In this document: piece after piece, positions 11,594-26,243 of the stretch | Layout: each line of letters starts with the position of its first letter | Position numbering within the stretch: position 1 is the first letter of the stretch | Virus record (IMG/VR): IMGVR_UViG_3300032820_000054 | Coordinates: 1-33,931 of that record | DNA length: 33,931 nt | Source of the DNA: a virus | Reading direction: 5' to 3' (one strand) | The notes under the pieces: generated by a model | What the model saw: only the letters and a program-made list of their open reading frames with translations | Told to the model about the DNA's origin: nothing | Database searches by the model: none | Made by a program: the position numbers and the translations under genes

Positions 11594-11612
11594 ACAACGA
11601 TTAAATCGTTGT
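11594..11612 (-). other. Perfect hairpin in the leader of the 3111-aa gene
   Basis: An 8-bp perfect inverted repeat, ACAACGAT and ATCGTTGT around a 3-base loop, lies between the WAGGGACGAC element (11632-11641) and the GTG start at 11576. There is no T tract behind it, so it is not a classical intrinsic terminator. A leader hairpin that protects or processes the mRNA, or a protein-binding palindrome, would fit. Confidence 0.5.
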
Positions 11613-11631
11613 CGCTGGAAACAGAGATTGT

Positions 11632-11641
11632 GTCGTCCCTA
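11632..11641 (-). promoter_or_regulatory. WAGGGACGAC element, copy upstream of the 3111-aa gene
   Basis: The minus strand reads TAGGGACGAC directly after the TAA stop of the 829-aa gene. The element is 55 bases upstream of the start of the 3111-aa gene, in the only intergenic gap (about 65 bp) of the internal virion gene cluster. It is one of five exact copies and is followed by the hairpin at 11594-11612. A late promoter start region or RNA-processing site are the main readings. Confidence 0.5.
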
Positions 11642-14131
11642 TTATTGGCGGTTTACATTTGTTCCTGGTGCTAAACCAGGTGTTGATCCGCTTCGATAAA
11701 AGCTTCTGGCACCAGGGTTTTTACTGTTGGTGGGGAAAGCGTCTTGTGGCAGCACAAAGAAGTCGTTGAAGATTATGTCTTGATCTTTTTTAAGTTTAAT
11801 TCGTAATGCAACTCGGTTTGGTTCTTTATACATACGGTTTAGCTCGTCTTCCATTGCGGTCAACGTATCAAACGTACCAGCCTCTACATCTCCAAATATA
11901 ACAGTCCCAGCCCCGATTGATGACTTCATATCTCTAACACGTTTGAGCAAATCAGCTATATATTGATTTCTTTCTTGTATAAATTCCGTAGGGTCATTTG
12001 TTCCCAACATTCGGCCAGCTTCTTTGCTATAATATGGGGCAGAAGAAATTACCTCTAATGATGGTCTAAGGTCAGCGAAATCTGTTTCTAAAGATTTCAT
12101 CTTCGCGGCAATTTCTTTTTGTGTTGCAATCGGGGCTGTTCTGTCAGCGATTTTCTTCGCAATGAAACCTGCCCGTGAACTTTGAAGTTTTTTATTGTCT
12201 GGTCGATTTAATTCATTATAAGCTTTTTCTAAAAGAAGAGGCTGATCACGCAAGAACGTGTTTTTGTCACGTCCAGCCATTTGCCAAGCAAACTCATATA
12301 TCAAGGTGAGATCAGAGCCGTGCATTATATCTTTTCCTGAGAGGAAACCTTCGACGCCAGCCGACGCCGTGAGCGCGTCTGTGTCGTCTTCATCAACGTC
12401 AAACTTATTTGCGGCCCATCCTTGTATTTGTTTTGTACTGGCCTTGGCAAGATTTTCGACCAATGTTGTGTACTGTTGATCAGCGGATTTCTGTATTTGT
12501 ATCTTTAAACCTTTTTGGAGTGTCACTACTCCAGCGTCTAAGTTTATTTGTAATCTGCTTACAAGTTGGTTAAAGATTTTTTGTCTTGTTGATCCTTGAA
12601 TGCCATTGGGGATTGCCCGTTCTAATGTGTCAAGAGCATAGGCGTCTTTCCCTTCGTTTCCGAGAGCTACTATTCTTTTAAATAGGTCTGACTTTTCTAT
12701 GTTATTAACAGTTTCTTGTATGCGTGCTGGCTCTTTAACTTTTGCCTCATCCATACCTTTTATTCGCCAAGCGAGGGCATCAAACGAATCACCAACTTTG
12801 AATAAATTATAATATTGTTGGATTTCCTTGATGGCGTTTTCACGTATGTTGGCATCAGTGCTTGACAGTCGGTTCATAAAACCTTGATCCGACGTAAATT
12901 TTTCAGTGATCTTTGCTATTTGCACTCTGTCGTTTTCGGCTTGCTGACCCTTTGCTTCGTTGATGACTTTGTTTATCAGCCCAATATTATTCATTGGGAT
13001 GCCTAGTCTATTTGCAACGTCTTGAGGTGAGTAGTTTTTTGTTGGTCCTATTATTGCTGCAAGTTCTTTTACCAATTTCGCTTCCGAACTTTTGATATTA
13101 ACAGGCGACATCAACTTGTTATAGATATGTTGAAGCGCGGCTTCCTTTGCATGTGGGTTCATCATTACATCTAGGCCTTTTTCTATCTCTGCTCTGAGGC
13201 CTAGTTCACTAAGGTTTTTACCTTGTTTGACAATATACGTTCTGAGATTTGCAAGAAATTCTGGATTGTTCGTTCGTAAATCGTTGACAGCTTTCGTAGC
13301 TATGATGGGGGTACGCGCTGTCTGCTCGTTTTTAAGCGAGGCATTGAGCAAAGCAAATTCGTTTGGTTGGAGTGTTATTCCATTTAGGGTCGCTTGTTGT
13401 GAAACAAAATCCATCGCTTTTTTTATAGACTGTTCATCGCCCATGTTAATTAGTTGTTGGACTGTTTCATTTTTCTGCATGTTTTTAGCAAATGTTTCTA
13501 CTTTCTTGTCACGCTCTGTGCGGTCACGCCGTTTTCTTTTTGCCACTGCCAACTGGAGAATTTCCGCATTGGCTTGCAGGCCTAAACTGGCGGCGGCTTC
13601 TGCCGCATCACCAGCGTCGATGCCTTGCATCATCTCTGAAATTCTTGTAGCCATTTCACCTTTTAAGCTTATAACCTTTGCGTCGAACGTCGGCCTGTAG
13701 TTCCGCATGATTGCTTGAGCCGTTTGCGCTCCTGGCGAACTTGGGTCAGGAAACATAGACACTACATCTTTTTCCAAACTTTCGAATGTGCTGTTTGCAG
13801 TTATCTTGTTGTCTATCATTTTCGAAACGCTGTTCAACGCATCTATATGCGAAGTCATCCTTTCGTTTTCGAGTTTCCACTCGTTGTATTTTCTGTCCTT
13901 CTCTCTTCGGTCTGCATAAGAACGTAGAGCCGCTGTCGATGGCAGTTGCTGTTTTAGGTAACTGCTTCCACCAGAGAGTGTGTCTATCACATTTTGATGA
14001 TCCCCGATTGGAGCATCTGGGAATAGTTGCCGCCACTCCCTGTAGAACTGTAGGTTCTTCATGCGTTTAGTCTGGTATGCCTCATCAGACTTTTGCATAC
14101 CCTCTGTAAATTTATGGAAACCAAAAATCAT
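11642..14131 (-). CDS. Internal virion protein, 829 aa, helical (T7 gp15-like position)
   Basis: The protein has 829 residues, is mostly charged and helical, and has no signal peptide or clear membrane span. It begins MIFGFHKFTEGMQKSDEAYQ, followed by a coiled-coil-like region rich in Arg/Lys/Glu up to about residue 110, and continues with long Leu/Ile heptad-like helices. The last third contains LRDQPLLLEKAYNELNRPDN and a Pro/Gly-rich end (SGSTPGLAPG). I recognise no catalytic motif. Its position between the 442-aa protein with a hydrophobic N-terminus and the 3111-aa giant copies the gp14-gp15-gp16 order of T7-like ejection proteins, so a role in the internal core or ejectosome is inferred. 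The start follows the previous stop by 9 bases with an AAGG ribosome-binding site. Confidence 0.68.
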   Translation of the reverse strand: MIFGFHKFTEGMQKSDEAYQTKRMKNLQFYREWRQLFPDAPIGDHQNVIDTLSGGSSYLKQQLPSTAALRSYADRREKDRKYNEWKLENERMTSHIDALNSVSKMIDNKITANSTFESLEKDVVSMFPDPSSPGAQTAQAIMRNYRPTFDAKVISLKGEMATRISEMMQGIDAGDAAEAAASLGLQANAEILQLAVAKRKRRDRTERDKKVETFAKNMQKNETVQQLINMGDEQSIKKAMDFVSQQATLNGITLQPNEFALLNASLKNEQTARTPIIATKAVNDLRTNNPEFLANLRTYIVKQGKNLSELGLRAEIEKGLDVMMNPHAKEAALQHIYNKLMSPVNIKSSEAKLVKELAAIIGPTKNYSPQDVANRLGIPMNNIGLINKVINEAKGQQAENDRVQIAKITEKFTSDQGFMNRLSSTDANIRENAIKEIQQYYNLFKVGDSFDALAWRIKGMDEAKVKEPARIQETVNNIEKSDLFKRIVALGNEGKDAYALDTLERAIPNGIQGSTRQKIFNQLVSRLQINLDAGVVTLQKGLKIQIQKSADQQYTTLVENLAKASTKQIQGWAANKFDVDEDDTDALTASAGVEGFLSGKDIMHGSDLTLIYEFAWQMAGRDKNTFLRDQPLLLEKAYNELNRPDNKKLQSSRAGFIAKKIADRTAPIATQKEIAAKMKSLETDFADLRPSLEVISSAPYYSKEAGRMLGTNDPTEFIQERNQYIADLLKRVRDMKSSIGAGTVIFGDVEAGTFDTLTAMEDELNRMYKEPNRVALRIKLKKDQDIIFNDFFVLPQDAFPTNSKNPGARSFYRSGSTPGLAPGTNVNRQ

Positions 14132-14140
14132 TTGAGTACC

Positions 14141-15469
14141 TTACAAGACGCGGTTCGGGTCAATATAAAATCCTCCCTGATCCCATGTGCCAGCACTGGT
14201 GCTTCCACCAAACATGGGATCAGGGCCAAGAGAACTGTAATCGATTGGATTTGATGATGGGGTCGGGGCAAATAAATCACCAAGCTTCATATCACCAAGA
14301 CCTGTTTCTTTGAAAAGTTTGTCAGCCGATTGCCCAGCCGCGCCAAAAGCACCGCCAGCCTGTTCTGCTAATGTTTTCATCAGTGCTTGCGAGGTTTGTG
14401 CGGCGGCTGGGGCAGACTTTAATACACCTGCTGGACCCTGCACACGATAGCTGAATGGGGCTGTCGCAAGTGCTTGACCAGTGTCAAGCGTCGTTGTTGC
14501 AAGTGCCTGCTCCTGTCCAAGCGTTCGAAGTGCGGCTTGATAATCGGCCAAGTCAGTGTTCTGGTTGAGTGCGTCAATGTTTTGCAACATGCCCATTGCG
14601 CCTGCCATGTTGGTTCTTTCACCTGCCTGAGCTTGTTGTGATAAGTTTTGTCCAGTGACTGCCGACTGCATAGCCTGTCTGAAGGCAAGGTCTTGCATTG
14701 ATCGGTCAAAGTTGAGGCCAGCTATGTCTGCCCCCTGTGCGGCTATGTTACCGCGTTGTAAGCCAGTATCCAAGCCTTGCAGTCCCTGCATCTGACGCAT
14801 TGCCATGTTGATCGCGTTGAGTGTGTTTCTTGCTTCGGCTTCGTCCATCGCGTCTGCCATCTGACGAGCCGCTACTGTGCGCTGTCCTGTAACCCCACCG
14901 CCTAGCTTGCGCTGGCTGTCGGTTAGGATTTTACTCATTGCCTGATCAAGGTTGCGCTTCGACATTGTGTCGAGGTTCATTTTATACATGTTGGCAAGTT
15001 CAGCGACCGCAGTATCGTACTTATTTGGTGAAAAGGCTGTATTGATTGCGGCTCTGCTTCCAACATTTCCAGCCGTTGTCGGAAACAAAGTATCAGCAAG
15101 CGTCATTTGAGAAAGAAGCTCTGCATCCTGTCGGCGTTTTTGTACTGCGCTTTCCTGTAGGATGTCGCGCCGTGTGTCGATCTCGCCTTGATCTCGTTCA
15201 GCGGAAAGCAGATTTGCAAGATCGTCAATATATGCTGGATCGTACTGACCGCGCCCCCCGTAGGCAGTAAGCAGATCAGCAATGACGTCTTGAAGTGCGT
15301 CAGCACCTTCGTCGTAAATTCCTTCTTGACGATCCATGCTCTCGATCTGACGGTTCTGAAGCTGTTCAGCCATTCGCAGCTGTTTTTTTGCACGGCTGTT
15401 CGCTTGAAAACCTGATATTAGGTTGGCTCCGAGGCCAGCTACCCCAAGGAGAGTTGAAAAAGCTACCAT
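14141..15469 (-). CDS. Internal virion protein, 442 aa, hydrophobic N-terminus (T7 gp14-like position)
   Basis: The protein has 442 residues. It begins with a hydrophobic stretch (STLLGVAGLGANLISG, residues 5-20), then a long Gln/Ala/Met-rich helical body with a coiled-coil character (AKKQLRMAEQLQNRQIESM; QMADAMDEAEARNTLNAIN). The C-terminus is Pro/Gly/Ser-rich and ends FYIDPNRVL. This is the usual make-up of podovirus ejection proteins that insert in the outer membrane, such as T7 gp14 or P22 gp7, but I see no diagnostic motif. The ribosome-binding site TAGGAG lies 9 bases before the ATG. It opens the group of three progressively larger internal proteins (442, 829, 3111 aa). Confidence 0.68.
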   Translation of the reverse strand: MVAFSTLLGVAGLGANLISGFQANSRAKKQLRMAEQLQNRQIESMDRQEGIYDEGADALQDVIADLLTAYGGRGQYDPAYIDDLANLLSAERDQGEIDTRRDILQESAVQKRRQDAELLSQMTLADTLFPTTAGNVGSRAAINTAFSPNKYDTAVAELANMYKMNLDTMSKRNLDQAMSKILTDSQRKLGGGVTGQRTVAARQMADAMDEAEARNTLNAINMAMRQMQGLQGLDTGLQRGNIAAQGADIAGLNFDRSMQDLAFRQAMQSAVTGQNLSQQAQAGERTNMAGAMGMLQNIDALNQNTDLADYQAALRTLGQEQALATTTLDTGQALATAPFSYRVQGPAGVLKSAPAAAQTSQALMKTLAEQAGGAFGAAGQSADKLFKETGLGDMKLGDLFAPTPSSNPIDYSSLGPDPMFGGSTSAGTWDQGGFYIDPNRVL

Positions 15470-15479
15470 CTGTTAGCTC

Positions 15480-16901
15480 CTATAGTCTTATGGTCGTGCC
15501 AAACCCACCAGCGAAGCGTGGATTAAGTGCTTGCGAAAATGCGGTAGGCATAGGCCACTGCGTGGGCAGATATTCTAACGCACCTGTAAATGGGTTAATA
15601 CGAGTTGGTCGGAAATTCTGCATGAATGTGTTGCCGAATGTCTGTGGCTGTGTGTTGACCACAGGTGAAGCTGTACTTGCAGGGATGTCTACAGCTATGT
15701 CTGGCGTAGCAACCTCGTTACTGACAGGAGTGTCGGGGAGAGCAGTTACCTCTGGACCCGGCCCCATGCCAGGGGTGGTGACGCCTAGATCAGCATTTCT
15801 AGCGTTTTCTGCTGCAAGGATTGCCGCTTCATATTGCTGCTGCATTTTGATGTTGTTGAGGTCGGTTGCAGTATCGCCTGATGGCAATAAGCCATATTGT
15901 GTGAGCTTGTCACTGATAAATGTTTCCGCTTCGCCCGTGCCAAAACGACCTGTGTAACCGATACCTCTTATAGCATCGCGGGCAGCGGTTTGATCTGTTC
16001 CAGCGCGGCCAACGTTGCTTGCGTTAGATGCTGACCACGGAGTTAATGGATCATCATCAAAATCTGAATACGATGCTTTGTATGCAGTCACTGTGCTTGG
16101 ATCAAAGGAACCTGTGTAGCCAGATTGCGCCAAGTCGAAGCGAGGCGTAAGCTGTGACGAAAGTTCGTCAGTCGACATTCCAGCCGTATTGCCAAGTAAG
16201 TCGTATGCGAAGTCGCCGCTTCCAATTATGTCTCCCCGCAGGTCAGTTTGTGTTTGGTTAAGAAGGTTTGCTCCGCTTAACATATCTCGCCGTTCAGTAG
16301 AACGCTCACTTGCCCCGCCGCCATGAACGTTGTCGTCGTAAGACGACAAACCCTGTAAGCGGCCAAAACGGCCTTCAAAGCCAGCGTCTTTTATGTCTTG
16401 TTGCAGTTGGTTGGTTGCTCGTTTTTCTGATTGACCGAAAATGTTGAAGTGATCGCGTGCGCTGATGCCGCCAAGTGTACCCTCGTCGAGGGCTTGAGCG
16501 ACGTCAGGGTTGTTAGTGCGATAAAAATCTTCGTCGAACATTCCTGTGTACGCACCTAAATCTTGGGTCTGCTGTTCACCGACGTTTCCAGCGCGACCTT
16601 CGATTTTGCCGTATTGTTGATAATGTTCGAATGGATCAAGATAGTTTTCGTCGTCAGGAGAGCCTCTGCCGTAGCCAGCTTTAGCTACGTCTTGGAACTG
16701 ATCAAGGTAAAAGTCAGCGTCGAAGTCATCTCGGTTCGCAAATTCCAATGCACCTGTCATTGGGTTGATGGTGCCGCTACCGCCACGGGCTTTTAGGAGC
16801 GCGGCTTCTTGAGGGTTGATGTGTGCCAGCAAGGTATCGCCAAAGCGTCCGTGCTTTGCCATCTGCTTTCCTGATCCAAACATTTTACTACCGAACGTCA
16901 T
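15480..16901 (-). CDS. Virion-associated protein with GRFGDT module and FD-FY repeats
   Basis: The protein has 473 residues. Residues 16-54 (KHGRFGDTLLAHINP, then GGSGTINPMTGALEF) form a module repeated at the start of the next upstream gene's product. Two degenerate copies of a motif known from bacterial surface proteins follow: FDADFYLDQFQDVA to HYQQYGKIEGR (60-103) and MFDEDFYRTNNPDVA to HFNIFGQSEKR (121-161). Further short repeats read GFEGRFG, GYTGSFD and GYTGRFG. Near the C-terminus RINPFTGALEYLP echoes the N-terminal INPMTGALEF. I know of no function. The context, between fibre and ejection proteins, suggests a minor virion component. GGAGGAG at the end of the preceding gene is its ribosome-binding site. 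Confidence 0.66.
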   Translation of the reverse strand: MTFGSKMFGSGKQMAKHGRFGDTLLAHINPQEAALLKARGGSGTINPMTGALEFANRDDFDADFYLDQFQDVAKAGYGRGSPDDENYLDPFEHYQQYGKIEGRAGNVGEQQTQDLGAYTGMFDEDFYRTNNPDVAQALDEGTLGGISARDHFNIFGQSEKRATNQLQQDIKDAGFEGRFGRLQGLSSYDDNVHGGGASERSTERRDMLSGANLLNQTQTDLRGDIIGSGDFAYDLLGNTAGMSTDELSSQLTPRFDLAQSGYTGSFDPSTVTAYKASYSDFDDDPLTPWSASNASNVGRAGTDQTAARDAIRGIGYTGRFGTGEAETFISDKLTQYGLLPSGDTATDLNNIKMQQQYEAAILAAENARNADLGVTTPGMGPGPEVTALPDTPVSNEVATPDIAVDIPASTASPVVNTQPQTFGNTFMQNFRPTRINPFTGALEYLPTQWPMPTAFSQALNPRFAGGFGTTIRL

Positions 16902-16906
16902 GTCTC

Positions 16907-17917: not shown

Positions 17918-19479
17918 TAAGATGCGACCTTCGTTACTGCTAAGACAATTTCAATATCGGCGGCACTTGTGACATTGCTTACTTCAAAGCCTATTGTCTT
18001 GGAAGCGTTAGCCGTCTGTGCGTCTACGGTGATACTGTTTGCTAGGTTTTGCTCTACTGGCGTGGATGATGCTCCCACGGCTGTAAAGCCAGGGACGTTT
18101 ACACCGTCAACTTGAAGTATAACGTCACATGTGCCACTGGATGTTCTTACACTTATTTTGTCGATGCGAATAATCTCTCCATAAATGCGTTTTATGACAA
18201 AAGTGGTGGTAGCTGTTGTCGTTCCAGTTTCCACAAAGTGCATACTGTCAAGAGCCATGACCGTCGGAATTTGGCTTGCGGCAAGTCTCCCCGTCGCGTC
18301 GAGAGCCGCCACACCACTAGCGGCCCCGACGGACGTAAGCGGAACGTAGGCACTGAGGTCTACGTTCCGAAACTCTAATGCAGTTCCTGACGAATTTATG
18401 TGTAGAGATTTTAGTGCGTCGGTTGTCGTAAAAGACGGGATTGTGGTTGCCGTCGAAAACGGAAGCCAGTTTACACCGTCATGGAATTTTGGTTCGTCTG
18501 GTGATTGAGCAGTATCAATCCAAAAGTTACCAGCTACAGCGTCGACACCCGTCGGAGCCGTTGAGCTTACAAATGTTTTGCCGCGGTTCGCAGTCAAGGC
18601 GGCGAGGCCGTTGATGCGGTCTTGTGGAATTTGGCCAGCCGATATTGCGATCTTAGAGTAGGGGATGAAGCCAGTGGTCGTGTCGGTGAAATCGTCGGTC
18701 ATCATCAAACCTGTTACAGTTTTAGATGCAACGTTTTCGACAGTTAAAATTGTTACTTCATCGCCAGCGGGTAACGCAGAGGTAAATGTTACCGTGCCTG
18801 TGGCTGGGTCGTTGGTGTAGTCGTTACTGCCACCTGGCGTTTGGAAGAGGCCGTTTCTAAAGACCATGATGCGTTCGCTTTCCGTATGGGGAAACGCGAA
18901 CACTGCCTGGTTTGCCGTAGCAGTTGAGCTTGTGCGGCGAAAGTTAGATATGGAAGGTGCGCGTATACGAACGATGTGTACGATCTGCCCAGCATTGGGA
19001 ACTCCAGATGAGAGTGTTACCGTGTTGTTAGCCGCATCCATTGTGTACGAAGACGGCACCTGTAGTACCCCAGACAAAAACACGAACAAATCATCTGTAG
19101 TGTCAAAAATATAATTAAAGACAGTTTGTCCCTGCGTCGCAGTAAACGACTGCGCTCCAGAGAATAGCGGTCCTTCTATCGTCCCTAAGTCGGCTCCAGG
19201 CGCACCTTTTATGTCAGAAGCTGGAACTATCGTCGTCCACCCTGTGGTCGTATCTGTGTATGTTCCTACGCGGTATTGCAGGTTGGAAGATGTATCCAAT
19301 CGCATTTCGAGAGGCGCGATTAATTTGCCTGTGCTGTCAAATAAAACACCCATCAACTCGCCTAATGTGAAGTCGCCTTTTTCACCAGCAACAAGGTAGC
19401 GGATAAGCGAGTTGAACTCGTCGTCGATATTACCTGTGCTTCTGTAGTTTCCTGGGTGTAACTGCTGGATGCGTGCCAT
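17917..19479 (-). CDS. Tail fibre protein, 520 aa
   Basis: The protein has 520 residues. Residues 38-84 (TLGELMGVLFDSTGK to YRVGTYTDTTTGWTTI) form a domain shared with the 462-aa fibre protein near the portal, probably the virion-anchoring part. Two tandem beta domains follow (about 111-172 and 182-249) of a type common in phage fibres: FTATQGQTVFNYIF with LFVFLSGVLQ and AGQIVHIVRI, then ATANQAVFAFPH with IMVFRNGLFQ and AGDEVTILTV. The centre has linker motifs (SAGQIPQDRINGL; ALDATGRLAASQIP), and the C-terminus is a Thr/Ser/Val-rich beta region that may bind receptor or trimerise. AGGAAA precedes the ATG. It sits next to the nozzle gene, as T7- or P22-type fibre and needle genes often do. Confidence 0.8.
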   Translation of the reverse strand: MARIQQLHPGNYRSTGNIDDEFNSLIRYLVAGEKGDFTLGELMGVLFDSTGKLIAPLEMRLDTSSNLQYRVGTYTDTTTGWTTIVPASDIKGAPGADLGTIEGPLFSGAQSFTATQGQTVFNYIFDTTDDLFVFLSGVLQVPSSYTMDAANNTVTLSSGVPNAGQIVHIVRIRAPSISNFRRTSSTATANQAVFAFPHTESERIMVFRNGLFQTPGGSNDYTNDPATGTVTFTSALPAGDEVTILTVENVASKTVTGLMMTDDFTDTTTGFIPYSKIAISAGQIPQDRINGLAALTANRGKTFVSSTAPTGVDAVAGNFWIDTAQSPDEPKFHDGVNWLPFSTATTIPSFTTTDALKSLHINSSGTALEFRNVDLSAYVPLTSVGAASGVAALDATGRLAASQIPTVMALDSMHFVETGTTTATTTFVIKRIYGEIIRIDKISVRTSSGTCDVILQVDGVNVPGFTAVGASSTPVEQNLANSITVDAQTANASKTIGFEVSNVTSAADIEIVLAVTKVAS

Positions 19480-19488
19480 GTGTGTTTC

Positions 19489-21018
19489 CTATTTCTGCGG
19501 TGTTTTCAGTTCAATCGCAAAGCCTAATAATTCCAAATCTCCCATATCCGTACTCTCAAATTTTAACTGGATACCTCGGTATCGCAGTTGAAACGGAATA
19601 CGAAATTGAACATCAAGTGCATCAGACGGGAAACTGACGGGATTGTCGTCCCTTCTTTCAACTTGGATTTCTTCAACAAGAACCTCGTTGCCTTCCTCAT
19701 CGTGGGCAGTGATGCGAAGTGTTCCTGTGCCAGCAGCTTGCACCACAAGTGCGCGTGCTTCCTTTAGTTCGTCTATCTGGCCGTGCCAGAGGATGGGGGT
19801 TTCAACAACCATTGCTGGGCGTATGAAATCGTCGGTGAGATCGTCTAGTGGTGACAGTTCGAAAAGCTCGTCTAGTCGATCATACATGGTCAAGGTTGTG
19901 CCGAATGTCATACTGCCAGCCAGAAACGCTCCGCATCTGGCAGACCCAATATCGGAAGTTGACCATGACAAAGCGTCATAGCCGCGTCGAAACTCTGCAA
20001 CCAGAGCTTTGTGTAGACCGTCTGCCATTGGGAAGAAGATATGCAGACGGCCTAAGTCTTGATCGTAGGTAGAACTTACGAAACGAGGTCCAATACATTT
20101 GCGTAAAAGGTCTTTGTAGACTTCTTCGATCTCAAAAGAGAGCGTGAGTGTATCTATTGTGATGCCATTGTCGTTACTGCGGATTAAACTATGTACGCCA
20201 TGCCGTGAGCAGAAGATGATGTCTGACCCAACTTGTGCGATTGAGTTGTGGGAGATCGCACCTAATTGTACGTTTGCCCGTGTGTCGATCTCGAAGTTGG
20301 CAATGTCAGGGTCAACTTTGTAAATTATAGCTTGGTCATTGGTAAAGATTGCAAGTCGGTTTGTTTCAAATCGCGCTAGTCCAGTTATCTCATCGGCAGT
20401 GCCAATGATGTTTGCTAGGTCGAGAAAGTCTGCACGGGTACTTGTTGTAGTTGCAGTTTCTTCGGCTGGGAATATTTGCTCATCTCCATCGTTGTTAAAC
20501 AGCCGTGAGATTTCTATCTCAGTCGGTTTGTTTGGGATGCCAGCAACATACATGCGGTTCTGAATGGCTACCCCAAAGCCAGGTGCAACAGAGGCTGTGT
20601 TTGGCATAAAAGAAAATCCATCGGTCATAATCATGCCGTGGCCAGGTGACATAAACATGAGTTTGCCAGCAAACATTGCAGATGTGACGGGAGCATCTTT
20701 CGTGAAAGCGTCTGTGTAGCTGGCAGAGCGTTCTGTGTGTAGGTTTATCGCTTTGCCGGTTTGTACCGCGTATGCCAAGCCAGTTCTGTTAAAAAAGTTC
20801 TGGTGAATTATCTCGCCCTCTTCGATACGCTTGCGAACCTTCAGTCCTGTGTCACGTACCAGAGTTCCTGTCCATTTCGAGTGGGCGTTGTTTAGGGTAA
20901 ACAAGGGCTGTTTTTTACCATCATCCATCCCGATAACAGGACGTGACCGATCAAGGCCAGTGAAAGCGTAATACCCCGATAAGCGTGAGGATATTAGGGA
21001 AGGGGATTTGGTACGCAT
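19489..21018 (-). CDS. Tail nozzle/hub-like protein (P22 gp10 or T7 gp12 type)
   Basis: The protein has 509 residues, is rich in beta strands, and lacks signal peptide or membrane segments. Strand pairs recur around short motifs (GKLMFMSPGHGMIMTDG; NRMYVAGIPNKPTEIEIS; NRLAIFTNDQAIIYKVDP; SDIIFCSRHGVHSLI; GRLHIFFPMADG; TLTMYDRLDELFEL), as in the beta-propeller nozzle or tail-hub proteins of podoviruses. The start MRTKSPSLISSRLSGYYAFTG also suits a tail stabilisation protein. It follows a putative adaptor gene and precedes a fibre gene, the order expected for a tail tube built on the portal. Identification is by pattern, size and synteny, not by a catalytic motif. The C-terminal 130 residues form an extra beta domain. 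Confidence 0.62.
   Translation of the reverse strand: MRTKSPSLISSRLSGYYAFTGLDRSRPVIGMDDGKKQPLFTLNNAHSKWTGTLVRDTGLKVRKRIEEGEIIHQNFFNRTGLAYAVQTGKAINLHTERSASYTDAFTKDAPVTSAMFAGKLMFMSPGHGMIMTDGFSFMPNTASVAPGFGVAIQNRMYVAGIPNKPTEIEISRLFNNDGDEQIFPAEETATTTSTRADFLDLANIIGTADEITGLARFETNRLAIFTNDQAIIYKVDPDIANFEIDTRANVQLGAISHNSIAQVGSDIIFCSRHGVHSLIRSNDNGITIDTLTLSFEIEEVYKDLLRKCIGPRFVSSTYDQDLGRLHIFFPMADGLHKALVAEFRRGYDALSWSTSDIGSARCGAFLAGSMTFGTTLTMYDRLDELFELSPLDDLTDDFIRPAMVVETPILWHGQIDELKEARALVVQAAGTGTLRITAHDEEGNEVLVEEIQVERRDDNPVSFPSDALDVQFRIPFQLRYRGIQLKFESTDMGDLELLGFAIELKTPQK
19645..19654 (-). promoter_or_regulatory. WAGGGACGAC element, copy upstream of the 520-aa fibre gene
   Basis: The minus strand reads AAGGGACGAC inside the 3' end of the nozzle gene, 165 bases before the fibre start at 19479. 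It is the only one of the five exact copies lying well inside a coding sequence, so selection on codons cannot be separated from a regulatory role here. A-rich sequence precedes it, as at the other copies. Confidence 0.38.
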
Positions 21019-21019
21019 G

Positions 21020-21529: not shown

Positions 21530-21852
21530 TCTACCTCAACTAACTTTCCTTGAATTACAAAGACGTGTTTCATCACACGTTCTTGGTACTCTGGTGGTAT
21601 GACAAACATCATGTGACCACCCTGTGTTCTAACTCCTCGTATTGTTGTCACAGCGTCGAGGATTATGTCGTATCTTTGTTCGCCAGCTTCAGTGGAGATT
21701 AAAGTAAGACCTTTGTCGGTTTTGGTTTTGGGTTGTGATGCTTTGACTTTTTTTGCTTGCTTCTTCTGTGCTTGTAGCTCTACGTCGGTTTCGTCTTGTT
21801 GTGTCTGTGGCGGCGCGGATTGCGCTGATCGCATACCTTGATAAACTTTCAT
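21526..21852 (-). CDS. Hypothetical protein, 108 aa, disordered N-terminus
   Basis: The protein has 108 residues. The first 50 are Gln/Lys/Thr-rich and probably disordered (SAPPQTQQDETDVELQAQKK). The second half looks like a small beta domain (GLTLISTEAGEQRYDIILD; GGHMMFVIPPEYQERVMKH; VFVIQGKLVEVE). No family recognised. It precedes the adaptor gene and overlaps it by ATGA, so a head-completion or head-decoration role is possible but unproven. It is the first gene after the WAGGGACGAC copy at 21904-21913 and after a small leader hairpin. Confidence 0.62.
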   Translation of the reverse strand: MKVYQGMRSAQSAPPQTQQDETDVELQAQKKQAKKVKASQPKTKTDKGLTLISTEAGEQRYDIILDAVTTIRGVRTQGGHMMFVIPPEYQERVMKHVFVIQGKLVEVE

Positions 21853-21871
21853 GTGATGTTCTCCGTGTTTG

Positions 21872-21887
21872 CATACTTGTTTGTATG
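21872..21887 (-). other. Small leader hairpin downstream of the WAGGGACGAC copy
   Basis: CATAC and GTATG form a 5-bp stem around a 6-base loop in the 41-bp gap between the MscS-like gene and the 108-aa gene. It is weak on its own. It is listed because two other copies of the upstream element are also followed or overlapped by a hairpin. Confidence 0.3.
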
Positions 21888-21893
21888 AACGTT

Positions 21894-22238
21894 TTAGTGG
21901 TCTGTCGTCCCTTCGTTCTCCGTAATAACTTTCTCAATACGCAGGTACTCTATGCGTTTGTTAGGAACAAAACGCCATGTGGTTCCTTTCCCGTTTTGGA
22001 TTTGGAATGTGGTTTTGAAAATGCCTATTTTGATGATGGTTGCGCGTTGACCGTCGATGTAGACCGTGCATCCTTCTTCTATGGCTGTGTCTGCGCGGAA
22101 CGTCAGCCCCTTTACCAATGCGTCCATTGCGTCCTTTAGCCAAAGGCCAATGCCGATTGAGACAGTTAGTGCAAGTAGGGGAGCAATCAGTTCTACAAAA
22201 TCAATAGATAGCTGGTTGACGTTTGCAAGCTCTATCAT
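21894..22238 (-). CDS. Mini-MscS-like membrane protein, 114 aa
   Basis: The protein has 114 residues, with one hydrophobic span (about 13-36, LIAPLLALTVSIGIGLWL) followed directly by a small beta domain (54-106). The domain matches the upper beta domain of MscS-type mechanosensitive channels: EEGCTVYIDGQRATIIKIG, then KTTFQIQNGKGTTWRFVPN and KRIEYLRIEKVI. In bacteria MscS opens under membrane tension. The helix just before the beta domain (WLKDAMDALVKGLTFRAD) corresponds to the pore-lining position. It is far shorter than a bacterial MscS (E. coli MscS is 286 aa), since only the last helix and the beta domain remain. It lies among head genes, starting right after the stop of a single-span membrane protein gene. 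Its role in infection is unknown. Confidence 0.72.
   Translation of the reverse strand: MIELANVNQLSIDFVELIAPLLALTVSIGIGLWLKDAMDALVKGLTFRADTAIEEGCTVYIDGQRATIIKIGIFKTTFQIQNGKGTTWRFVPNKRIEYLRIEKVITENEGTTDH
21904..21913 (-). promoter_or_regulatory. WAGGGACGAC element, copy upstream of the 108-aa gene
   Basis: The minus strand reads AAGGGACGAC in the last codons of the MscS-like gene, 51 bases before the ATG at 21852. It would drive or mark the adaptor-nozzle part of the late block. A small hairpin (21872-21887) follows. Confidence 0.45.
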
Positions 22239-22580
22239 TCAAAGTTTATCCCCTTTGACTTGAGGTAAAACCGCACCAGCTTTGCCGTAAGCGACAATAC
22301 ACAGGTGCAAGCCTTGTAAACTCTGGAGTGCGGTCCAGCTATCAGTCAGGGGATTGGCCATTATGATGACCAGTTGCTCTCGATGATTGATGCCTCTGAA
22401 GACAACGACTTCTTTAAACTTCTCTTTCATAGATGCTATGGCAGAGGCTATCGGCATACACTGCCCCATCTGAAGTCCCGGTCCTTTTGACTCGGAGTGT
22501 GCGTCAGATACCAAAATGTATAAAAATAAGAGAAAGGATGCCGCTCCTAATAGATAGCCTGCGTAAGGGTTATTCCACAC
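22239..22580 (-). CDS. Single-span membrane protein with extracytoplasmic domain, 113 aa
   Basis: The protein has 113 residues and starts at GTG (22580). The N-terminus is a signal-anchor (residues 7-26, AGYLLGAASFLLFLYILV) followed by a soluble domain of about 85 residues with two cysteines and short strands (FKEVVVFRGINHREQLVIIM; LHLCIVAYGKAGAVLPQ). No family recognised. If the anchor is uncleaved, the soluble part faces the periplasm. The gene follows the capsid terminator and a tiny ORF, and is directly followed by the MscS-like gene (TGA then ATG with no spacer), suggesting that the two membrane proteins are made together. The start codon is uncertain. Confidence 0.6.
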   Translation of the reverse strand: MWNNPYAGYLLGAASFLLFLYILVSDAHSESKGPGLQMGQCMPIASAIASMKEKFKEVVVFRGINHREQLVIIMANPLTDSWTALQSLQGLHLCIVAYGKAGAVLPQVKGDKL

Positions 22581-22581
22581 A

Positions 22582-22647
22582 CTACTTCTTCTTCTTGCTT
22601 TTTTTCTTTCCGTACATTTCCGCTAACCTTACAAAAAGAATACCCAT
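22582..22647 (-). CDS. Very small Lys-rich ORF, 21 aa
   Basis: A 22-codon frame from the ATG at 22647 encodes MGILFVRLAEMYGKKKSKKK plus one further Lys, then stops (TAG) 2 bases upstream of the GTG start of the membrane protein. AAGGAA lies 6 bases before the ATG, directly behind the T tract of the capsid terminator. It could be a real amphipathic, basic peptide or a leader ORF that sets translation of the next gene. The strong start signal is the only evidence. Confidence 0.35.
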   Translation of the reverse strand: MGILFVRLAEMYGKKKSKKKK

Positions 22648-22659
22648 GATAAATTCCTT

Positions 22660-22694
22660 AAAAAAAGAATGGGGGGCTGGGAAGGAAGCCCCCC
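22660..22694 (-). terminator. Strong rho-independent terminator behind the major capsid gene
   Basis: Immediately after the capsid stop codon (22702-22704) the minus strand forms a perfect 8-bp GC-rich stem, GGGGGGCT and AGCCCCCC around an 8-base loop (22671-22694), followed by ATTC and seven T's (22660-22666). This is the clearest intrinsic terminator in the window. It would limit, but need not abolish, transcription into the adaptor and nozzle genes, allowing high capsid expression, as the terminator after T7 gene 10 does. Confidence 0.88.
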
Positions 22695-22701
22695 AAACTT
22701 G

Positions 22702-23880
22702 TTAGGCAGTGGTTTCCCATCCCTTAATGTAGGTATGGACCTTGTCTTGCGTTAATTCTAGGCCGCAATCCGTTAAATATTCATGGATCACGCCGTCCAC
22801 GCCGTTGCCTTGCCTGTCACGCAACAAACTTGTGTCGCGTCCATCTAGGTAACGGTACTTGACATGTGGCATGTCGATGATGACCATTGCGCTGTCCATG
22901 TTCGGAACTTGTCGGAACTGTGGATGCAAGTGAACCATCAAATCACCAGCCATCGTTGAGTACCGTGTGACGTTCACGCCATAGGTGCCATCGACGACTG
23001 TAGGCTGCCATCTTGCTTTGCCGAAGCGTTGCAAGTGTGCGGCTACTTTAGCGCCAACAAATGCTAATTTTTGCTGGGAGCCAAAGGCAAAGATGGTGTT
23101 GATGAGCATTGAGTCGAACTCATCTTCAGTCATCTGACCGCTTGTTGACCATGTTGCACCATCAACGACGTTTGTTATGCTGGATAAGATACCCCCAGTG
23201 TAACGACGTTCGTTGTAAGCACCGCTGTTTTCGATATGCTTCTTACCAAAAAACATGGCTCTTTCGATCTCTTGCATATGAAGCTTGAGAGCTTTCGTAG
23301 CAAATTCATCTTCCGCGTCACCCGTTCGACGATAGGTAGCCTTTAGGGTATTTGTCACGGCAAATGGAGTTCTAAATATTTCCGTGAAATTCGACACGAC
23401 GCTCGGATCGAAACTTATGGCGGTAGACACGTCATCACCGTCGGCGGCGGCAAAGCCACTCACAAACAGATCATCGTTGTCTAAGATGGTTAGACCAGTT
23501 GAACCCAAGTTTCTAGCCACAGCGAGAGTAGTACCAGACGCATCGGCTGTGACGCGCATGATTTCCCCAGTACGTGCGTTGGCCAACAATGTACCAGCGG
23601 TTAAGAACCCAACTTCAATATCAGCGTCAATGACGACTGATGTTGCTGTTGCGTTGTAGCCTCCAGCGTTGTTGATCTTCACAACCCGTTCTGGGATCGA
23701 ATCTCTAAAGTGGTTGAATTGAGGGTCATCTGTAGCCTCACCCGACGTCATGGCGAGTAAAGCATTAAATGGCGCGGAGCCATTTGGTTCGAGAAGTGTA
23801 AACAATTCTCGGTAATTGGTTGGTCGGAAGTCAGTTGAAAACTCACCTGATCCGCGCAACCCTTGTACTCCAGTAGGCAT
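22702..23880 (-). CDS. Major capsid protein, SU10/DUF5309 type
   Basis: The protein has 392 residues from the ATG at 23880, which has a strong AAGGAGG ribosome-binding site; an in-frame TTG 30 bases upstream would place that site inside the gene, so I reject it. The start MPTGVQGLRGSGEFSTDF and RPTNYRELFTLLEPNGSAPF, the central FRTPFAVTNTLKATYRRTGD (about 170-189) and the spine helix FATKALKLHMQEIERAMFFG (193-212) match SU10-type major capsid proteins (DUF5309), an HK97-fold family. Residues about 75-145 look like an inserted beta domain (VDADIEVGFLTAGT-like strands, TGEIMRV). It is flanked upstream by the scaffold group and downstream by a strong terminator, as expected for the most highly expressed virion gene. 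Confidence 0.9.
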   Translation of the reverse strand: MPTGVQGLRGSGEFSTDFRPTNYRELFTLLEPNGSAPFNALLAMTSGEATDDPQFNHFRDSIPERVVKINNAGGYNATATSVVIDADIEVGFLTAGTLLANARTGEIMRVTADASGTTLAVARNLGSTGLTILDNDDLFVSGFAAADGDDVSTAISFDPSVVSNFTEIFRTPFAVTNTLKATYRRTGDAEDEFATKALKLHMQEIERAMFFGKKHIENSGAYNERRYTGGILSSITNVVDGATWSTSGQMTEDEFDSMLINTIFAFGSQQKLAFVGAKVAAHLQRFGKARWQPTVVDGTYGVNVTRYSTMAGDLMVHLHPQFRQVPNMDSAMVIIDMPHVKYRYLDGRDTSLLRDRQGNGVDGVIHEYLTDCGLELTQDKVHTYIKGWETTA

Positions 23881-23919
23881 AGTAGCCTCCTTTTTAAAAA
23901 AAAGTTGCAAAAAAACGCA

Positions 23920-24048
23920 TCAAACGAAAAACGGCAGAGCTTCGTTCTCGACTTCAGCTTGTTTCTGCGACGTGTATCTAGCGGCTATTGCGGCTTACGT
24001 AGCTTCCACAACTGCATTATTGATTGTGTGGGTAGGGACGTCGTCCCT
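23920..24048 (-). other. Capsid-gene leader (170 bp gap) containing a coding-like but interrupted frame
   Basis: The gap between the DUF7220 gene and the capsid gene holds the WAGGGACGAC element and, on the minus strand, one frame with protein-like composition: RDDVPTHTINNAVVEAT, a TAA (23995-23997), then AAIAARYTSQKQAEVENEAL and PFFV before TGA (23920-23922). It has no start codon at its beginning. It could be the decayed remnant of a small gene, a -1 frame extension of the DUF7220 gene, or chance. The rest of the gap is A/T-rich leader ending in the capsid ribosome-binding site. Confidence 0.2.
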
Positions 24049-24049
24049 T
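24034..24049 (-). promoter_or_regulatory. WAGGGACGAC element with built-in hairpin, upstream of the capsid gene
   Basis: The minus strand reads AAGGGACGAC (24040-24049) and then GTCCCT, so that AGGGAC and GTCCCT form a 6-bp stem with loop GAC. It lies 159 bases before the capsid ATG and directly after the stop of the DUF7220 gene, in the largest intergenic gap of the late block. An A/T-only stretch precedes it. This is the best candidate for a strong capsid promoter or for a processing site at the 5' end of capsid mRNA. Confidence 0.5.
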
Positions 24050-24050
24050 T

Positions 24051-24287
24051 TTAAAATAAATTAAATGCCCGTCTTATGACGTAGCCTCTGACGACAGATA
24101 TGAAAAAATAGCCAAGGGTAATATACCCTGCCTGTAAGGGGTCGGGGTGAAGCCCGAATATAGGCAATGCAAAATAGGTAAACAGGTATGATATTAGAAG
24201 GCCGACAATCGAGTTGGTGTTCGCCTCTAAAAAAGACATCCGACGTGTTTGCGGTTTAAGCGGTTTAATTGGATTTATTACAGCCAT
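24051..24287 (-). CDS. DUF7220-type small membrane protein, 78 aa
   Basis: The protein has 78 residues. A short basic start with QTRRMSFLEANTNSIVG (13-29) leads into two hydrophobic segments (about 24-46, LLISYLFTYFALPIFGL, and 54-70, GYITLGYFFISVVRGYV) and ends RRAFNLF. The sequence RRMSFLEA, then a membrane segment with LPIFGL, and the final SVVRGYVIRRAFN match small two-span proteins of family DUF7220, found in phages and bacteria with no known activity. It would sit in the host inner membrane with both ends in the cytoplasm. It lies between the basic 189-aa gene and the capsid gene, an unusual place for a membrane protein. Confidence 0.72.
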   Translation of the reverse strand: MAVINPIKPLKPQTRRMSFLEANTNSIVGLLISYLFTYFALPIFGLHPDPLQAGYITLGYFFISVVRGYVIRRAFNLF

Positions 24288-24289
24288 CG

Positions 24290-24859
24290 CTACTTTTTCT
24301 TGGAGCCTGGGCCAGTGATTGCAGAGCCTTCCCCTGCTGGGCGTCCCTGTAAATAGTCCAAGATCGTAAGTACGACTGCCGTTCCTGGGGATACTCTGGC
24401 AACGTTTGTGAGAGTTTTTGCAAATTTAGAAGGGGGAATGGCATCTTTAATTGTTTTTTTGGACTGCTCAATAATCTGGTTTCGTATTTTTTTGTCACTA
24501 TCATTTAAATGGTTAGGATTGATCTTCTGCATACGTTGCAAATCATAACTAGCCTGTTCTGCTTTAATCTTTTTTATCCTGTTGGCTGACTTTGCACGCC
24601 GTTCCGCAAATCTTTGTTCGTAGCTTGGTAAGTCTTTAAGGGGAACCCTGTTTCTTACTTTTTGCCGTCGTCTTCCCCCTGCCCCCTTGCTTGACATACT
24701 TTCTCTGATTGCGCTTGTTACGGCATACCCTGCAATACCTGTGGCAAGACCTAGACCTGCATAATGATTTTTAACAAGAGGCGGTTGTTGCTCTCTCATT
24801 GTTGATTTCTTTTTCTTTAACCGAGGCCTCGATTTAGGAATTGGGGGTTTTTTCGGCAT
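24290..24859 (-). CDS. Very basic hypothetical protein, 189 aa
   Basis: The protein has 189 residues and is dominated by Lys and Arg: N-terminal PKKPPIPKSRPRLKKKKS, central GGRRRQKVRNRVPLKDLPSY and RRAKSANRIKKIKAEQ, C-terminal GSKKK. Two short hydrophobic stretches (about 34-51, AGLGLATGIAGYAV; about 160-170, TAVVLTILDYL) might contact membrane. It could bind DNA or the inside of the capsid, or be ejected with the genome; nothing in the sequence decides this. It lies between scaffold and capsid genes, beginning 2 bases after the scaffold stop, so it is probably made with the head proteins. No family recognised. Confidence 0.6.
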   Translation of the reverse strand: MPKKPPIPKSRPRLKKKKSTMREQQPPLVKNHYAGLGLATGIAGYAVTSAIRESMSSKGAGGRRRQKVRNRVPLKDLPSYEQRFAERRAKSANRIKKIKAEQASYDLQRMQKINPNHLNDSDKKIRNQIIEQSKKTIKDAIPPSKFAKTLTNVARVSPGTAVVLTILDYLQGRPAGEGSAITGPGSKKK

Positions 24860-24861
24860 CT

Positions 24862-25896
24862 TTATCCCATTCCAGCTTGTCTGCTGAACGCCTTGTCAGC
24901 CAATCGGTTTAAGGTTTCATCGACAGGAGATGCTGGGGCAGCGGCTTCTCCCTCGGCTGGGGTAGCGGCCACCGTACCTTGATACGCCTGCCGTCGCTGG
25001 TTAATCTCTTTTAGGCGTTCAAATTCTGGCTGGTTTTTCAAGGCGGCAAAGTCAGCCATAACATTATTGAGAAGGTCTGCATCAGTAAACTCTCTCATGT
25101 CATAGCCACGCTCTGCAATGAAACCTTGGAATGGCCCATCATCAGCTTCGCTTAGATTGTACCGCTGGCCAGCTTCCACGATGTTGTTCTGAACAGTCCG
25201 TTGCAGTGCTTCCTCTCTTTGCTGGGAAGCTCTTTGGTTATTTGCCACTGCGTTTTGTGCAGTGTTTTGAGATTGCTGCAGCACGCCGTTAAGCATTTGA
25301 CCTATCTGGCCAATCTGATTTTGAATAGATGCAATGTTCTTTTGCTGTTCACGATAGCCAGGGGGGAGTGCGACATCGTTCTCTGCTTCCCACGAAGCAA
25401 AGGGGTCGTCTGTTCCTATGTTCGATTGTCCAGGGGCTGTGTCTTGACCTGGCCTCATGCTTTGCTGACCATCACCGCCAAGCTGTGTGTTCTTGGATAA
25501 GCCGTTCTTCATTAAGGACATCATGTCCGACATCACTGTCGGCATGTCCTTTCCTGTAGTCTGAGCTAGTTGCTCGGCTATACTGATCAGGGGCTTTGCC
25601 TGTGCGTACTTGTAGTTGACGTCAGGGTATCTGCTTGCCATGCCTTCAAGCTGGGATTTTGTAAACTCGCGTTCACCATCGCCAACTTTAAGCTTGATCA
25701 TGGTAAATGGTTCTTGATTCGCATTGTCGGCTTCAGTTTGCGGAGCCGCGTCAGTCATCGCCATTTCTGTTGGTGTTTCCGCTGGGGGCGGTGCGGCGGC
25801 ATCTACAGCCGCTTGCTGAACTTCTGGTTGTTGCGGTGCAGGGCCAAGCTGGTTGCTTGCAATGCGGTTAATGGGATCGTTGGGGTCTAGTGCCAT
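24862..25896 (-). CDS. Putative scaffolding protein, 344 aa
   Basis: The protein has 344 residues, rich in Gln, Ala, Asn and Pro. The N-terminal 60 residues look disordered (QQPEVQQAAVDAAAPPPAET). A short ordered part follows (FTMIKLKVGDGEREFTKSQL at about 64-83, and YPDVNYKYAQAKPLISIAEQ). A long Gln-rich helix occupies about 185-235 (NIASIQNQIGQIGQMLNGVL), and the C-terminus is helical and basic (ETLNRLADKAFSRQAGMG). Acidic, helical, low-complexity proteins with a basic C-terminus encoded shortly before the capsid gene are usually scaffolds that nucleate procapsids and then leave. No sequence motif proves it. The AGAGGAAA ribosome-binding site is strong, and a WAGGGACGAC copy lies 80 bases upstream. 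Confidence 0.72.
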   Translation of the reverse strand: MALDPNDPINRIASNQLGPAPQQPEVQQAAVDAAAPPPAETPTEMAMTDAAPQTEADNANQEPFTMIKLKVGDGEREFTKSQLEGMASRYPDVNYKYAQAKPLISIAEQLAQTTGKDMPTVMSDMMSLMKNGLSKNTQLGGDGQQSMRPGQDTAPGQSNIGTDDPFASWEAENDVALPPGYREQQKNIASIQNQIGQIGQMLNGVLQQSQNTAQNAVANNQRASQQREEALQRTVQNNIVEAGQRYNLSEADDGPFQGFIAERGYDMREFTDADLLNNVMADFAALKNQPEFERLKEINQRRQAYQGTVAATPAEGEAAAPASPVDETLNRLADKAFSRQAGMG

Positions 25897-25922
25897 TTTA
25901 ATTTCCTCTCAGCCGTAGCGGA

Positions 25923-26243
25923 TTAGGGGTTATGAAGTTTTTGGTGTAAGGATAATGGATCATCAATCGGGTTAGGGTCGTCCCTATTTTCCCACGATTG
26001 TAATTGCGCTTCGCCAAGAAGCTTGGCCTCCATATTTGGAATAATATTAAGAAGGTTCTCGGCCGCTTGCAGACAACCAGCATAGAAGGACGCCTCTTCG
26101 GACGTCATCTTTGGGTTCTTTGCTGTGGTAAGAGCGAGAGTGACGATCTCCTCTCGCATGATTTCCTCAAGAATTTTCCAGCCCTGCGACTTGGAAAGTG
26201 TTCTTAGTTGCCGAAGTTTACGTTCGGCTTGGGTAATACTCAC
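25923..26243 (-). CDS. Hypothetical protein, 106 aa, helical
   Basis: The protein has 106 residues, starts at GTG and overlaps the previous stop as GTGA. It is mainly helical and charged (AERKLRQLRTLSKSQGWKIL; EEASFYAGCLQAAENLLNII; AKLLGEAQLQSWENRDDPNP). I recognise no family. Genes of this size and make-up are common between portal and scaffold in podoviruses, where functions are mostly unknown. Its 3' end contains the WAGGGACGAC copy that precedes the scaffold gene. Confidence 0.62.
   Translation of the reverse strand: MSITQAERKLRQLRTLSKSQGWKILEEIMREEIVTLALTTAKNPKMTSEEASFYAGCLQAAENLLNIIPNMEAKLLGEAQLQSWENRDDPNPIDDPLSLHQKLHNP
25977..25986 (-). promoter_or_regulatory. WAGGGACGAC element, copy upstream of the scaffold gene
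   Basis: The minus strand reads TAGGGACGAC near the end of the 106-aa gene, 80 bases before the scaffold ATG at 25896. The preceding GGGAAAA and the following CCTAACCC are not shared in detail with other copies, apart from an A-rich run just upstream. Confidence 0.45.

Follow-up and report, generated by a model that had tools for sequence, protein, structure and literature searches.

The heptamer GGACGAC, repeated on the minus strand of a 33,931-nucleotide stretch of viral DNA (the window, meaning that whole stretch), very probably marks the -35 position of late promoters in CRP-810-type phages, at which host RNA polymerase would act together with a phage activator. Comparison across related genomes makes it the first of two boxes in a predicted promoter, followed by a spacer of 18-19 bp, a -10 of sigma70 type and a modest purine excess after 7 more nt, and this strict 7-bp box lies on the late-gene strand and recurs before the predicted late transcription units. 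The window comes from a marine phage of the CRP-810 type, with a capsid 61.5% identical and a shared late-gene order. The family was described by Wu et al. 2024 (PMC11288001), who report that it occurs in oceans worldwide and that several marine bacteria carry its prophages; by a term search, the word 'promoter' is absent from the main text of that paper. Among the matches listed in the literature searched, we found no account of late-gene switching in these phages, and none of those listed for GGGACGAC concerned phage promoters by title.

The original prediction pointed to five exact copies of WAGGGACGAC in the window, all on the minus strand, and all five were recovered. The chance expectation of about 0.1 copies was borne out by dinucleotide shuffles (n = 100), which had a mean of 0.10 and never reached five (0/100), and the distances of 55, 165, 51, 159 and 80 bases to the gene starts agree with the open reading frames if the capsid ATG is placed at 23880. 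The observation was thus correct, and it understated the pattern. The repeat is real, but its conserved extent is the 7-mer GGACGAC and not the whole of WAGGGACGAC, because the base preceding the heptamer is A, G, C or T in relatives. The heptamer occurs nine times on the late strand of the window and not at all on the opposite strand (Table 1), and three of the five longer copies fall within the 3' part of the upstream reading frame (the 509-aa, 114-aa and 106-aa ORFs). The copy at 2234, which had been called shortened, does lie before the lysis genes but carries the full GGACGAC. As for the A-rich upstream flank, the A's at -1, -3 and -4 are indeed strong, but at many sites they belong to the stop codon that ends the preceding gene; the remaining strong columns are all downstream of the box, at d20-24. 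A strong -10 is found in the window only at 25977, 24040 and 31696, and the scaffold-gene site (25977) is also present in the relatives G001, G002, G003 and G006.

Table 1. GGACGAC sites and one inverted repeat in the window, with the predicted -10 hexamers and transcription starts
Feature	Position	Strand	-10 hexamer	Spacer (bp)	Predicted start	Remark
GGACGAC box before 344-aa scaffold gene, inside 106-aa ORF	25977..25983	minus	CATTAT 25952-25957	19	about 25945
GGACGAC box, predicted capsid promoter	24040..24046	minus	AATAAT 24016-24021	18	about 24009
GGACGAC box before 108-aa gene	21904..21910	minus	TACAAA 21880-21885	18	about 21873	-10 weak/partial
GGACGAC box at 3' end of 509-aa gene, before 520-aa fibre gene	19645..19651	minus	TCTGAT 19621-19626	18	about 19614	-10 partial
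GGACGAC box before 3111-aa gene	11632..11638	minus	GACAAC 11608-11613		about 11601	-10 poor, unconvincing (score -2.0)
Extra GGACGAC box within 462-aa gene	31696..31702	minus	CATACT 31672-31677	18	about 31665
GGACGAC within 110-aa gene	31186..31192	minus	TAAGAA			-10 weak; uncertain
GGACGAC within 520-aa gene	19232..19238	minus	CATAAA			-10 score 1.0; uncertain
GGACGAC before lysis genes	2234..2240	minus				no -10 at the correct spacing
Inverted repeat, leader of 3111-aa gene	11583..11621	minus				folds at -18.1 kcal/mol

The evidence for the second box comes from an unbiased search for pairs of heptamer and distance in 17 relatives, in which GGACGAC at d19/20 was the top pair: 120/225 late-strand sites were followed by a -10 (log10 p -94.7, uncorrected for kinship), leaving about half (105/225) with no good -10, and all the other words among the best 12 listed overlap GGACGAC. 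The spacer was 18 in 54 sites and 19 in 66, the predicted +1 bases showed a modest purine excess (A 0.47, G 0.23), and the -10 hexamer had the A at position 2 and the T at position 6 of a sigma70-dependent promoter; no TTGACA-like -35 was seen, the word in that position being GGACGAC. On the early strand the best word in the same scan reached a log10 p of only -7.2, and GGACGAC there is, by these counts, coupled to a -10 not above background. When sites were clustered by kinship, the late-strand figure was 87/175 clusters, against 2/41 for GGACGAC on the early strand and 5/95, 7/144, 2/34 and 0/41 for the control words CAGCAGG, GACGACG, GGACGTC and GTCGTCC. Seventy other loci, themselves relatives of the 17 genomes (L139 is very close to G001), gave 141/210 sites and 45/88 clusters with a -10, with control words at 10/93 and 2/53 clusters and the reverse strand at 0/6. 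In the 19 large records a -10 followed 56/67 intergenic late-strand sites (489/3788 random intergenic positions) and 90/163 of those within ORFs (5259/53212), with 3/59 on the early strand; the spaced pattern as such was counted 48 times on the late strand, twice on the early strand and three times for the control. The strictness of the box was apparent from the 21 one-base variants, of which only those with T (11/51) or A (13/78) as the last base were clearly coupled, T at base 5 being borderline (5/41) and the remainder near background. The -10 hexamers were scored with a table not derived from these genomes. For the main coupling figures no sites were removed except those lying too close to the end of a contig; in one run of the column alignment 11/41 clusters were dropped, judged by eye to be coding or chance.

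G031 and G033, in which the promoter set is missing and a search for a replacement -35 word found none, were deliberately left out of the 17-genome scan, the variant test and the 17-genome clusters, and are included in the 19-record counts. In G032 or G035 taken alone, GGACGAC was not among the best six 6-mers listed. No promoter set is seen in about 30 kb of either outgroup phage, Kuura or VS-ABTNL-3; GGACGAC occurs in them on the plus and minus strands two and three times (Kuura) and four times and once (VS-ABTNL-3), and at one of the six plus-strand sites (VS-ABTNL-3 12542) a CATATT stands downstream with a spacer of 18. The TGTTGACGTT repeats of CRP-810 were considered as early promoters and rejected, eight of the nine lying in antisense orientation within gp57, which is annotated as tail fibre, and one in gp55.

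The site at 19645 lies inside the 509-aa gene, and among 50 deduplicated family homologues of that gene synonymous conservation peaked on the GGACGAC box and around the -10. The nine most constrained of the 113 codon columns included two in the box, two in the -10 and two directly upstream of the -10; two tested codons in the rest of the spacer were near a log10 p of -2.

Several other readings of the word have to be weighed. The original prediction had compared GGGA with the initially transcribed sequence of T7-type promoters, and RNA starting at GGGA under a phage single-subunit RNA polymerase would agree with this likeness and with a hairpin present beyond the site in five leaders from the clade of the window. 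We give this reading almost no credence, since PF00940 matched none of the 20 family records (two of which, G000 and G001, are fragments) with a positive T7 control (9.9e-110), no conserved block lies upstream of the GGG, the first G of GGGA varies, and the conserved partner, the -10 hexamer, sits downstream of the box. An element acting in the RNA, whether for processing, antitermination or translation, is suggested by the capsid ends, where the box has a stop codon on one side and a terminator-like hairpin on the other, a place that would suit antitermination; in G016, however, the box comes after the terminator-like hairpin that precedes the capsid gene, and a -10 coupled at 18-19 bp and synonymously conserved inside a gene is hard to reconcile with any such element, which we hold to be very unlikely. 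The fixed spacing and the constraint on both boxes make the processing site that had been suggested unlikely in particular, while the protein-binding element offered beside it would fit the coupled two-box pattern.

That GGACGAC is read by an alternative sigma factor of the host is also unlikely. No phage sigma of the kind that serves SPO1 or T4 late promoters was found (Sigma70_r2 matched 0/19 genomes, with 10/14 controls positive; a diverged sigma could escape), and one of the 31 host-family genomes, G053, has seven pattern matches and no control match; across all 31 genomes of Poseidonocella's family, the one host family covered, the spaced pattern was nevertheless not enriched (30 versus 46 for the control). 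With no T7-type RNA polymerase found in 20 records and no sigma factor in 19, host polymerase acting with a phage activator is the preferred interpretation.

In regard to which protein the activator would be, the lead among the candidates is a helix-turn-helix zinc protein, HTHZn, to which we assign about even chances. It has about 100 aa, with a helix-turn-helix at the N-terminus and, at the C-terminus, a CX2C-X12-CX2C zinc ribbon whose cysteines (C70, C73, C86 and C89) are invariant in the alignment, and its gene, which is outside the window, follows the primase gene in the same orientation. It is present in 19/19 large records, including G031 and G033 despite their missing promoter set, and among 50,697 phage records it matched only CRP-810 itself, where the gene lacks annotation. 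The first coupled site follows 302-1296 bp downstream of this gene in 17/19 large records, G035 and G037 having one coupled site each ahead of its end; 17/19 likewise have no coupled site between the genes for HTHZn and HTH81, an approximately 80-aa helix-turn-helix protein encoded upstream of the primase, two of these (G031 and G033) being nearly siteless. The structure model of HTHZn is only fair (pLDDT 76), and fold searches gave weak matches to the common helix-turn-helix arrangement only (best Z 5.6). A PDB profile match to a 'CAP repeat' entry was discarded (best 3.5e-06, with no stretch passing alone), as was covariation of a helix-3 residue (E/Q/H) with motif loss, which was strong on partial loci and failed on whole contigs; G071 and G072 have the H, yet carry GGACGAC with a -10 at 5/14 sites on whole contigs.

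Within the promoter explanation, it is somewhat unlikely that the activator is another phage protein, either HTH81 or, in some members, a LuxR/GerE-type protein (CRP-810 gp13). HTH81 is as universal as HTHZn (19/19 large records), but its only family match is a weak one to YdaS (0.0085, below the cut-off) and its gene adjoins the divergent early/primase boundary. The LuxR regulator is named in the CRP-810 paper (PMC11288001), and its GerE helix-turn-helix is genuine (3.5e-11); by profile, however, it is absent from 8/19 large records, including G023, G025 and G038, in which a -10-like hexamer (score above 0, spacer 17-19) follows 11/11, 11/11 and 10/11 GGACGAC sites. LuxR/GerE as a required activator was rejected on account of such motif-rich genomes.

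Returning to host polymerase with a phage activator, it can be hypothesized that the primase operon is transcribed first, from promoters other than GGACGAC ones, and that the activator would build up and then switch on the transcription units downstream of its own gene. GGACGAC would lie at about -38 to -31, where the activator would read it and so take over the contact of sigma region 4, and the -10 would be read by the host's RNA polymerase carrying the housekeeping sigma. At the capsid end the predicted start falls inside a terminator-like stem at 17/17 sites (28 records were surveyed, 11 of them having no site there), so that in many relatives transcripts from upstream may end while new ones continue. 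In the leader of the 3111-aa gene, the predicted start lies within the inverted repeat, which extends to the Shine-Dalgarno region, and a hairpin follows the site also in the corresponding leaders of G002, G003, G006 and G010. With N4-type hairpin promoters in mind, we noted by eye a long perfect short-loop hairpin at only one of the window's sites, 24040. In the leader of T4 gene e, a start inside a hairpin frees the ribosome site that is hidden in read-through RNA. The likeness here is the start inside the hairpin; in these phages it is only a prediction, and its best example involves a hairpin of terminator type, not one that covers a ribosome site.

The nearest likenesses are to two known systems. 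In T4 middle promoters, too, a phage box replaces the -35 and the host sigma70 -10 is retained, and a small phage DNA-binding activator would be a further likeness; the box read by MotA, (a/t)(a/t)(a/t)TGCTTtA, is separated from the -10 by 12 +/- 1 bp and is tolerant of changes (PMC2988021), whereas here the word is strict, the spacer is 18 or 19, the genes are late and the candidate has a zinc ribbon. The late promoters of P2 and 186, with their zinc-finger activators Ogr and B, would share late genes and a small Cys4 activator; the P2 element is TGT-N12-ACA and the Ogr cysteines are CX2CX22CX4C (PMC3931495), whereas here GGACGAC lies at the -35 position and the candidate has CX2C-X12-CX2C after the helix-turn-helix, with no CX2CX22CX4C.

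Taken together, the particle-building and lysis genes of these phages are probably turned on late by redirecting the host RNA polymerase through a small viral DNA-binding protein. We tentatively propose that HTHZn may represent a new class of late activator, one that reads a strict 7-bp word at the -35 contact and serves promoters set in terminator, and perhaps ribosome-site, hairpins. If true, such hairpin-embedded promoters would let the same DNA stop or silence read-through RNA and still free the new late RNA, a compact arrangement with the predicted start inside the terminator. The outcome is a map of predicted late promoters and a candidate master regulator for CRP-810-type phages, and the GGACGAC promoter pattern may serve as a rule by which many genomes of uncultured phages can be annotated.

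The five copies of WAGGGACGAC reported in the original prediction were found exactly at their claimed places, all on the minus strand, where 0.10 would be expected and five were reached in 0 of 100 shuffles; the open reading frames and site-to-gene distances given with them agree with the ORF list of the window. With one mismatch allowed in the 9-mer there were 11 sites against 5.3 expected and a largest shuffle of 10, so most of the signal is carried by the exact core. Since the quality of the -10, a sigma70-like hexamer downstream of the shorter box GGACGAC, varies among the sites of the window, the original list mixes likely strong promoters with weaker ones.

GGACGAC boxes and terminator-like or inverted-repeat elements in the window
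Feature	Position	Strand	-10	Remark
GGACGAC	25977	minus	good	
GGACGAC	24040	minus	good	
GGACGAC	31696	minus	good	
GGACGAC	21904	minus	partial or weak	
GGACGAC	19645	minus	partial or weak	inside 509-aa gene, before fibre gene
GGACGAC	19232	minus	partial or weak	
GGACGAC	31186	minus	partial or weak	
GGACGAC	11632	minus	poor or none	before 3111-aa gene
GGACGAC	2234	minus	poor or none	
Strong terminator-like hairpin	22660-22700 (approximate)	minus		directly past capsid stop; hairpin and no promoter in the window's clade
Conserved inverted repeat (CCAGTTTCC..GGAAACTGG type)	11583-11621	minus		just before 3111-aa gene

The capsid protein of the window, a virus record of 33,931 bases, is 61.5% identical to that of Roseobacter phage CRP-810, which has matches for the scaffold, capsid, 509-aa, 520-aa and giant proteins in the same order. 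CRP-810-type phages were described as a new, globally distributed marine phage family (Wu et al. 2024, PMC11288001), and a term search of the main text of that paper did not return the word 'promoter'. One related record, G001 (49,775 bases), has 59 of 68 sampled 30-mers in common with the window and reaches 20.7 kb beyond its left end. Another near relative, the nearly complete genome L139 (PBNR01000023.1, also L344-L346), was deposited in a 'Gammaproteobacteria' MAG, where the phage contig is probably a binning error.

Among related phage records, the longer word GGGACGAC is concentrated on the capsid strand (capsid strand vs other: G003, 10 vs 0; G010, 8 vs 0; G016, 7 vs 0; G006, 6 vs 0; G002 and G008, 5 vs 0 each; CRP-810, 3 vs 1). 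It was absent from G013 and G018 and occurred once in G015, and the shorter core GGACGAC is present in G013 and its kin. In 86 further loci from a capsid-profile search (80 kept of 431 viral loci, and 6 genome contigs), the capsid strand carries 300 copies of GGACGAC and the opposite strand 12. The base preceding it is not fixed across relatives, and at many sites the preceding A's belong to stop codons that touch the box.

Counting from d1, the first base past GGACGAC, A in column d20 was the strongest signal in 41 site clusters, and -10-like hexamers fitted best when they began at d19, an offset that won again in new loci (124 clusters, z 4.9 among offsets). An unbiased heptamer scan of 17 genomes over distances 8-28, whose p values ignore kinship, ranked GGACGAC at d19/20 first (120/225); the best early-strand word reached 1e-7. 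After clustering by kinship, GGACGAC was accompanied by a -10 in 87 of 175 clusters, whereas the control words scored 5/95, 7/144, 2/34 and 0/41. Another 70 loci, which are relatives of the 17 genomes and include one very close to G001, gave 45/88 for the box against 10/93 and 2/53 for controls. Intergenic late-strand boxes had a -10 at 56 of 67 sites, compared with 489 of 3788 random intergenic positions. Of 21 one-base variants tested, only those ending in T or A clearly kept the coupling, and T at base 5 was borderline (5/41). The spacer was 18 in 54 cases and 19 in 66, and 7 nt past the hexamer A or G stood in ~70%, a modest excess. Taken together, the coupling, the strict box, the 18/19 spacer and the modest A/G excess are the marks of a promoter, in which GGACGAC would occupy the -35 position. 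The spaced pattern GGACGAC-N18/19-YATWNT occurred 48 times on the capsid strand and twice on the other in 19 phage records (control, 3). A set of 31 genomes from a single host family showed no enrichment of it (30 vs 46 control), although one of these, G053, had 7 matches vs 0 control.

The site inside the 509-aa gene allowed selection to be read from codons. Among 50 homologues left after near-copies were removed from 85, 44 had GGACGAC at the corresponding place and 28 had a CATTAT-like hexamer at spacer 19. The nine most constrained of 113 testable codon columns included both aspartate codons of the box, both -10 codons and the two codons adjoining the -10 upstream, one of which is a GTG that would supply the TGn of an extended -10. 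Two others lie at the gene end, probably reflecting the ribosome site of the next gene, and one elsewhere; the rest of the spacer had only two testable codons, with log10 p about -2. The constraint on the box, the -10 and the adjoining codons is evidence for selection acting on the DNA rather than on the protein.

In 17 of 28 records, the sequence past the capsid gene runs from the stop codon through the box, 18-19 bp and the -10 position to a terminator-like hairpin, and at all 17 sites the predicted start divides the 5' arm of the hairpin; as G013, G015 and G018 are identical in sequence there, the distinct cases number 15. The stretch also loses folding energy, its value going in CRP-810, for example, from -28.8 kcal/mol to -4.4 kcal/mol. 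Two records, G016 and G038, have a poorly scoring hexamer at this spacing, G038 having TATACT at spacer 17 instead, and the hairpin of G034 has no clear T tract after it. The capsid-end promoter was not found in the other 11 of the 28 records, the window's clade included. The inverted repeat before the 3111-aa gene differs in its inner stem among relatives, and the Shine-Dalgarno bases fall within its 3' arm or next to it. It suggests the same start-in-hairpin logic for a ribosome site, but the -10 there is poor in the window.

As to which protein reads the box, a T7-type polymerase was not found in the family records (the T7 control was positive), nor was sigma region 2 in the family genomes searched. 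A LuxR protein as the required activator was rejected: 8 of the 19 large records lack it, and several of these have many coupled sites. Two small helix-turn-helix proteins, HTH81 and the zinc-ribbon protein HTHZn, whose gene follows primase, are both present in 19/19. In 17 of the 19, coupled sites begin 302-1296 bp past HTHZn (exceptions G031 and G033), and 17 of the 19 have no coupled site between the HTH81 and HTHZn genes (exceptions G035 and G037), G031 and G033 passing this test only through a near absence of sites. HTHZn matched 1 of 50,697 phage records, CRP-810, in whose public record the ORF (L028:14026-14316) was left unannotated. Its structure model is a three-helix HTH (pLDDT 76) with weak matches to HTH proteins, and a covariation of one helix residue with motif loss, promising at first, was refuted by whole contigs. 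We therefore set the HTHZn assignment well below the promoter itself: the balance stands about even for this candidate as the activator that reads GGACGAC. The first GGACGAC past its gene (G003:49518, G001:14579) belongs to the replication and not the structural region, where it coincides with or precedes two small neighbouring genes, one of which looks HNH-like by eye.

G031 and G033 keep HTHZn with only 3 and 2 capsid-strand boxes, and no replacement word for GGACGAC was found in them. G032 and G035 are weaker records, scoring >0 at 7/12 and 8/19 sites, and GGACGAC lies outside their six best words. Other words are also over-represented: GCAGACG strongly so in G031, G033 (L168-L170, L174-L176) and CRP-810 (L028, L029), with 36 late-strand and 15 other-strand copies in G031 vs about 2 expected; CGCAGACG 24 times in CRP-810, on one strand, vs 2.3; and GGAAACACCA in G001 (L030-L032), whose plus (early-gene) strand has 7 copies vs 0.05 expected, perhaps as shared ribosome-site context.

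A phage box combined with a host -10 is a device of known kind, probably met here in a recently described phage family. It comes with an unusually strict box, a new candidate activator, and predicted starts that are built into terminator-like stems.
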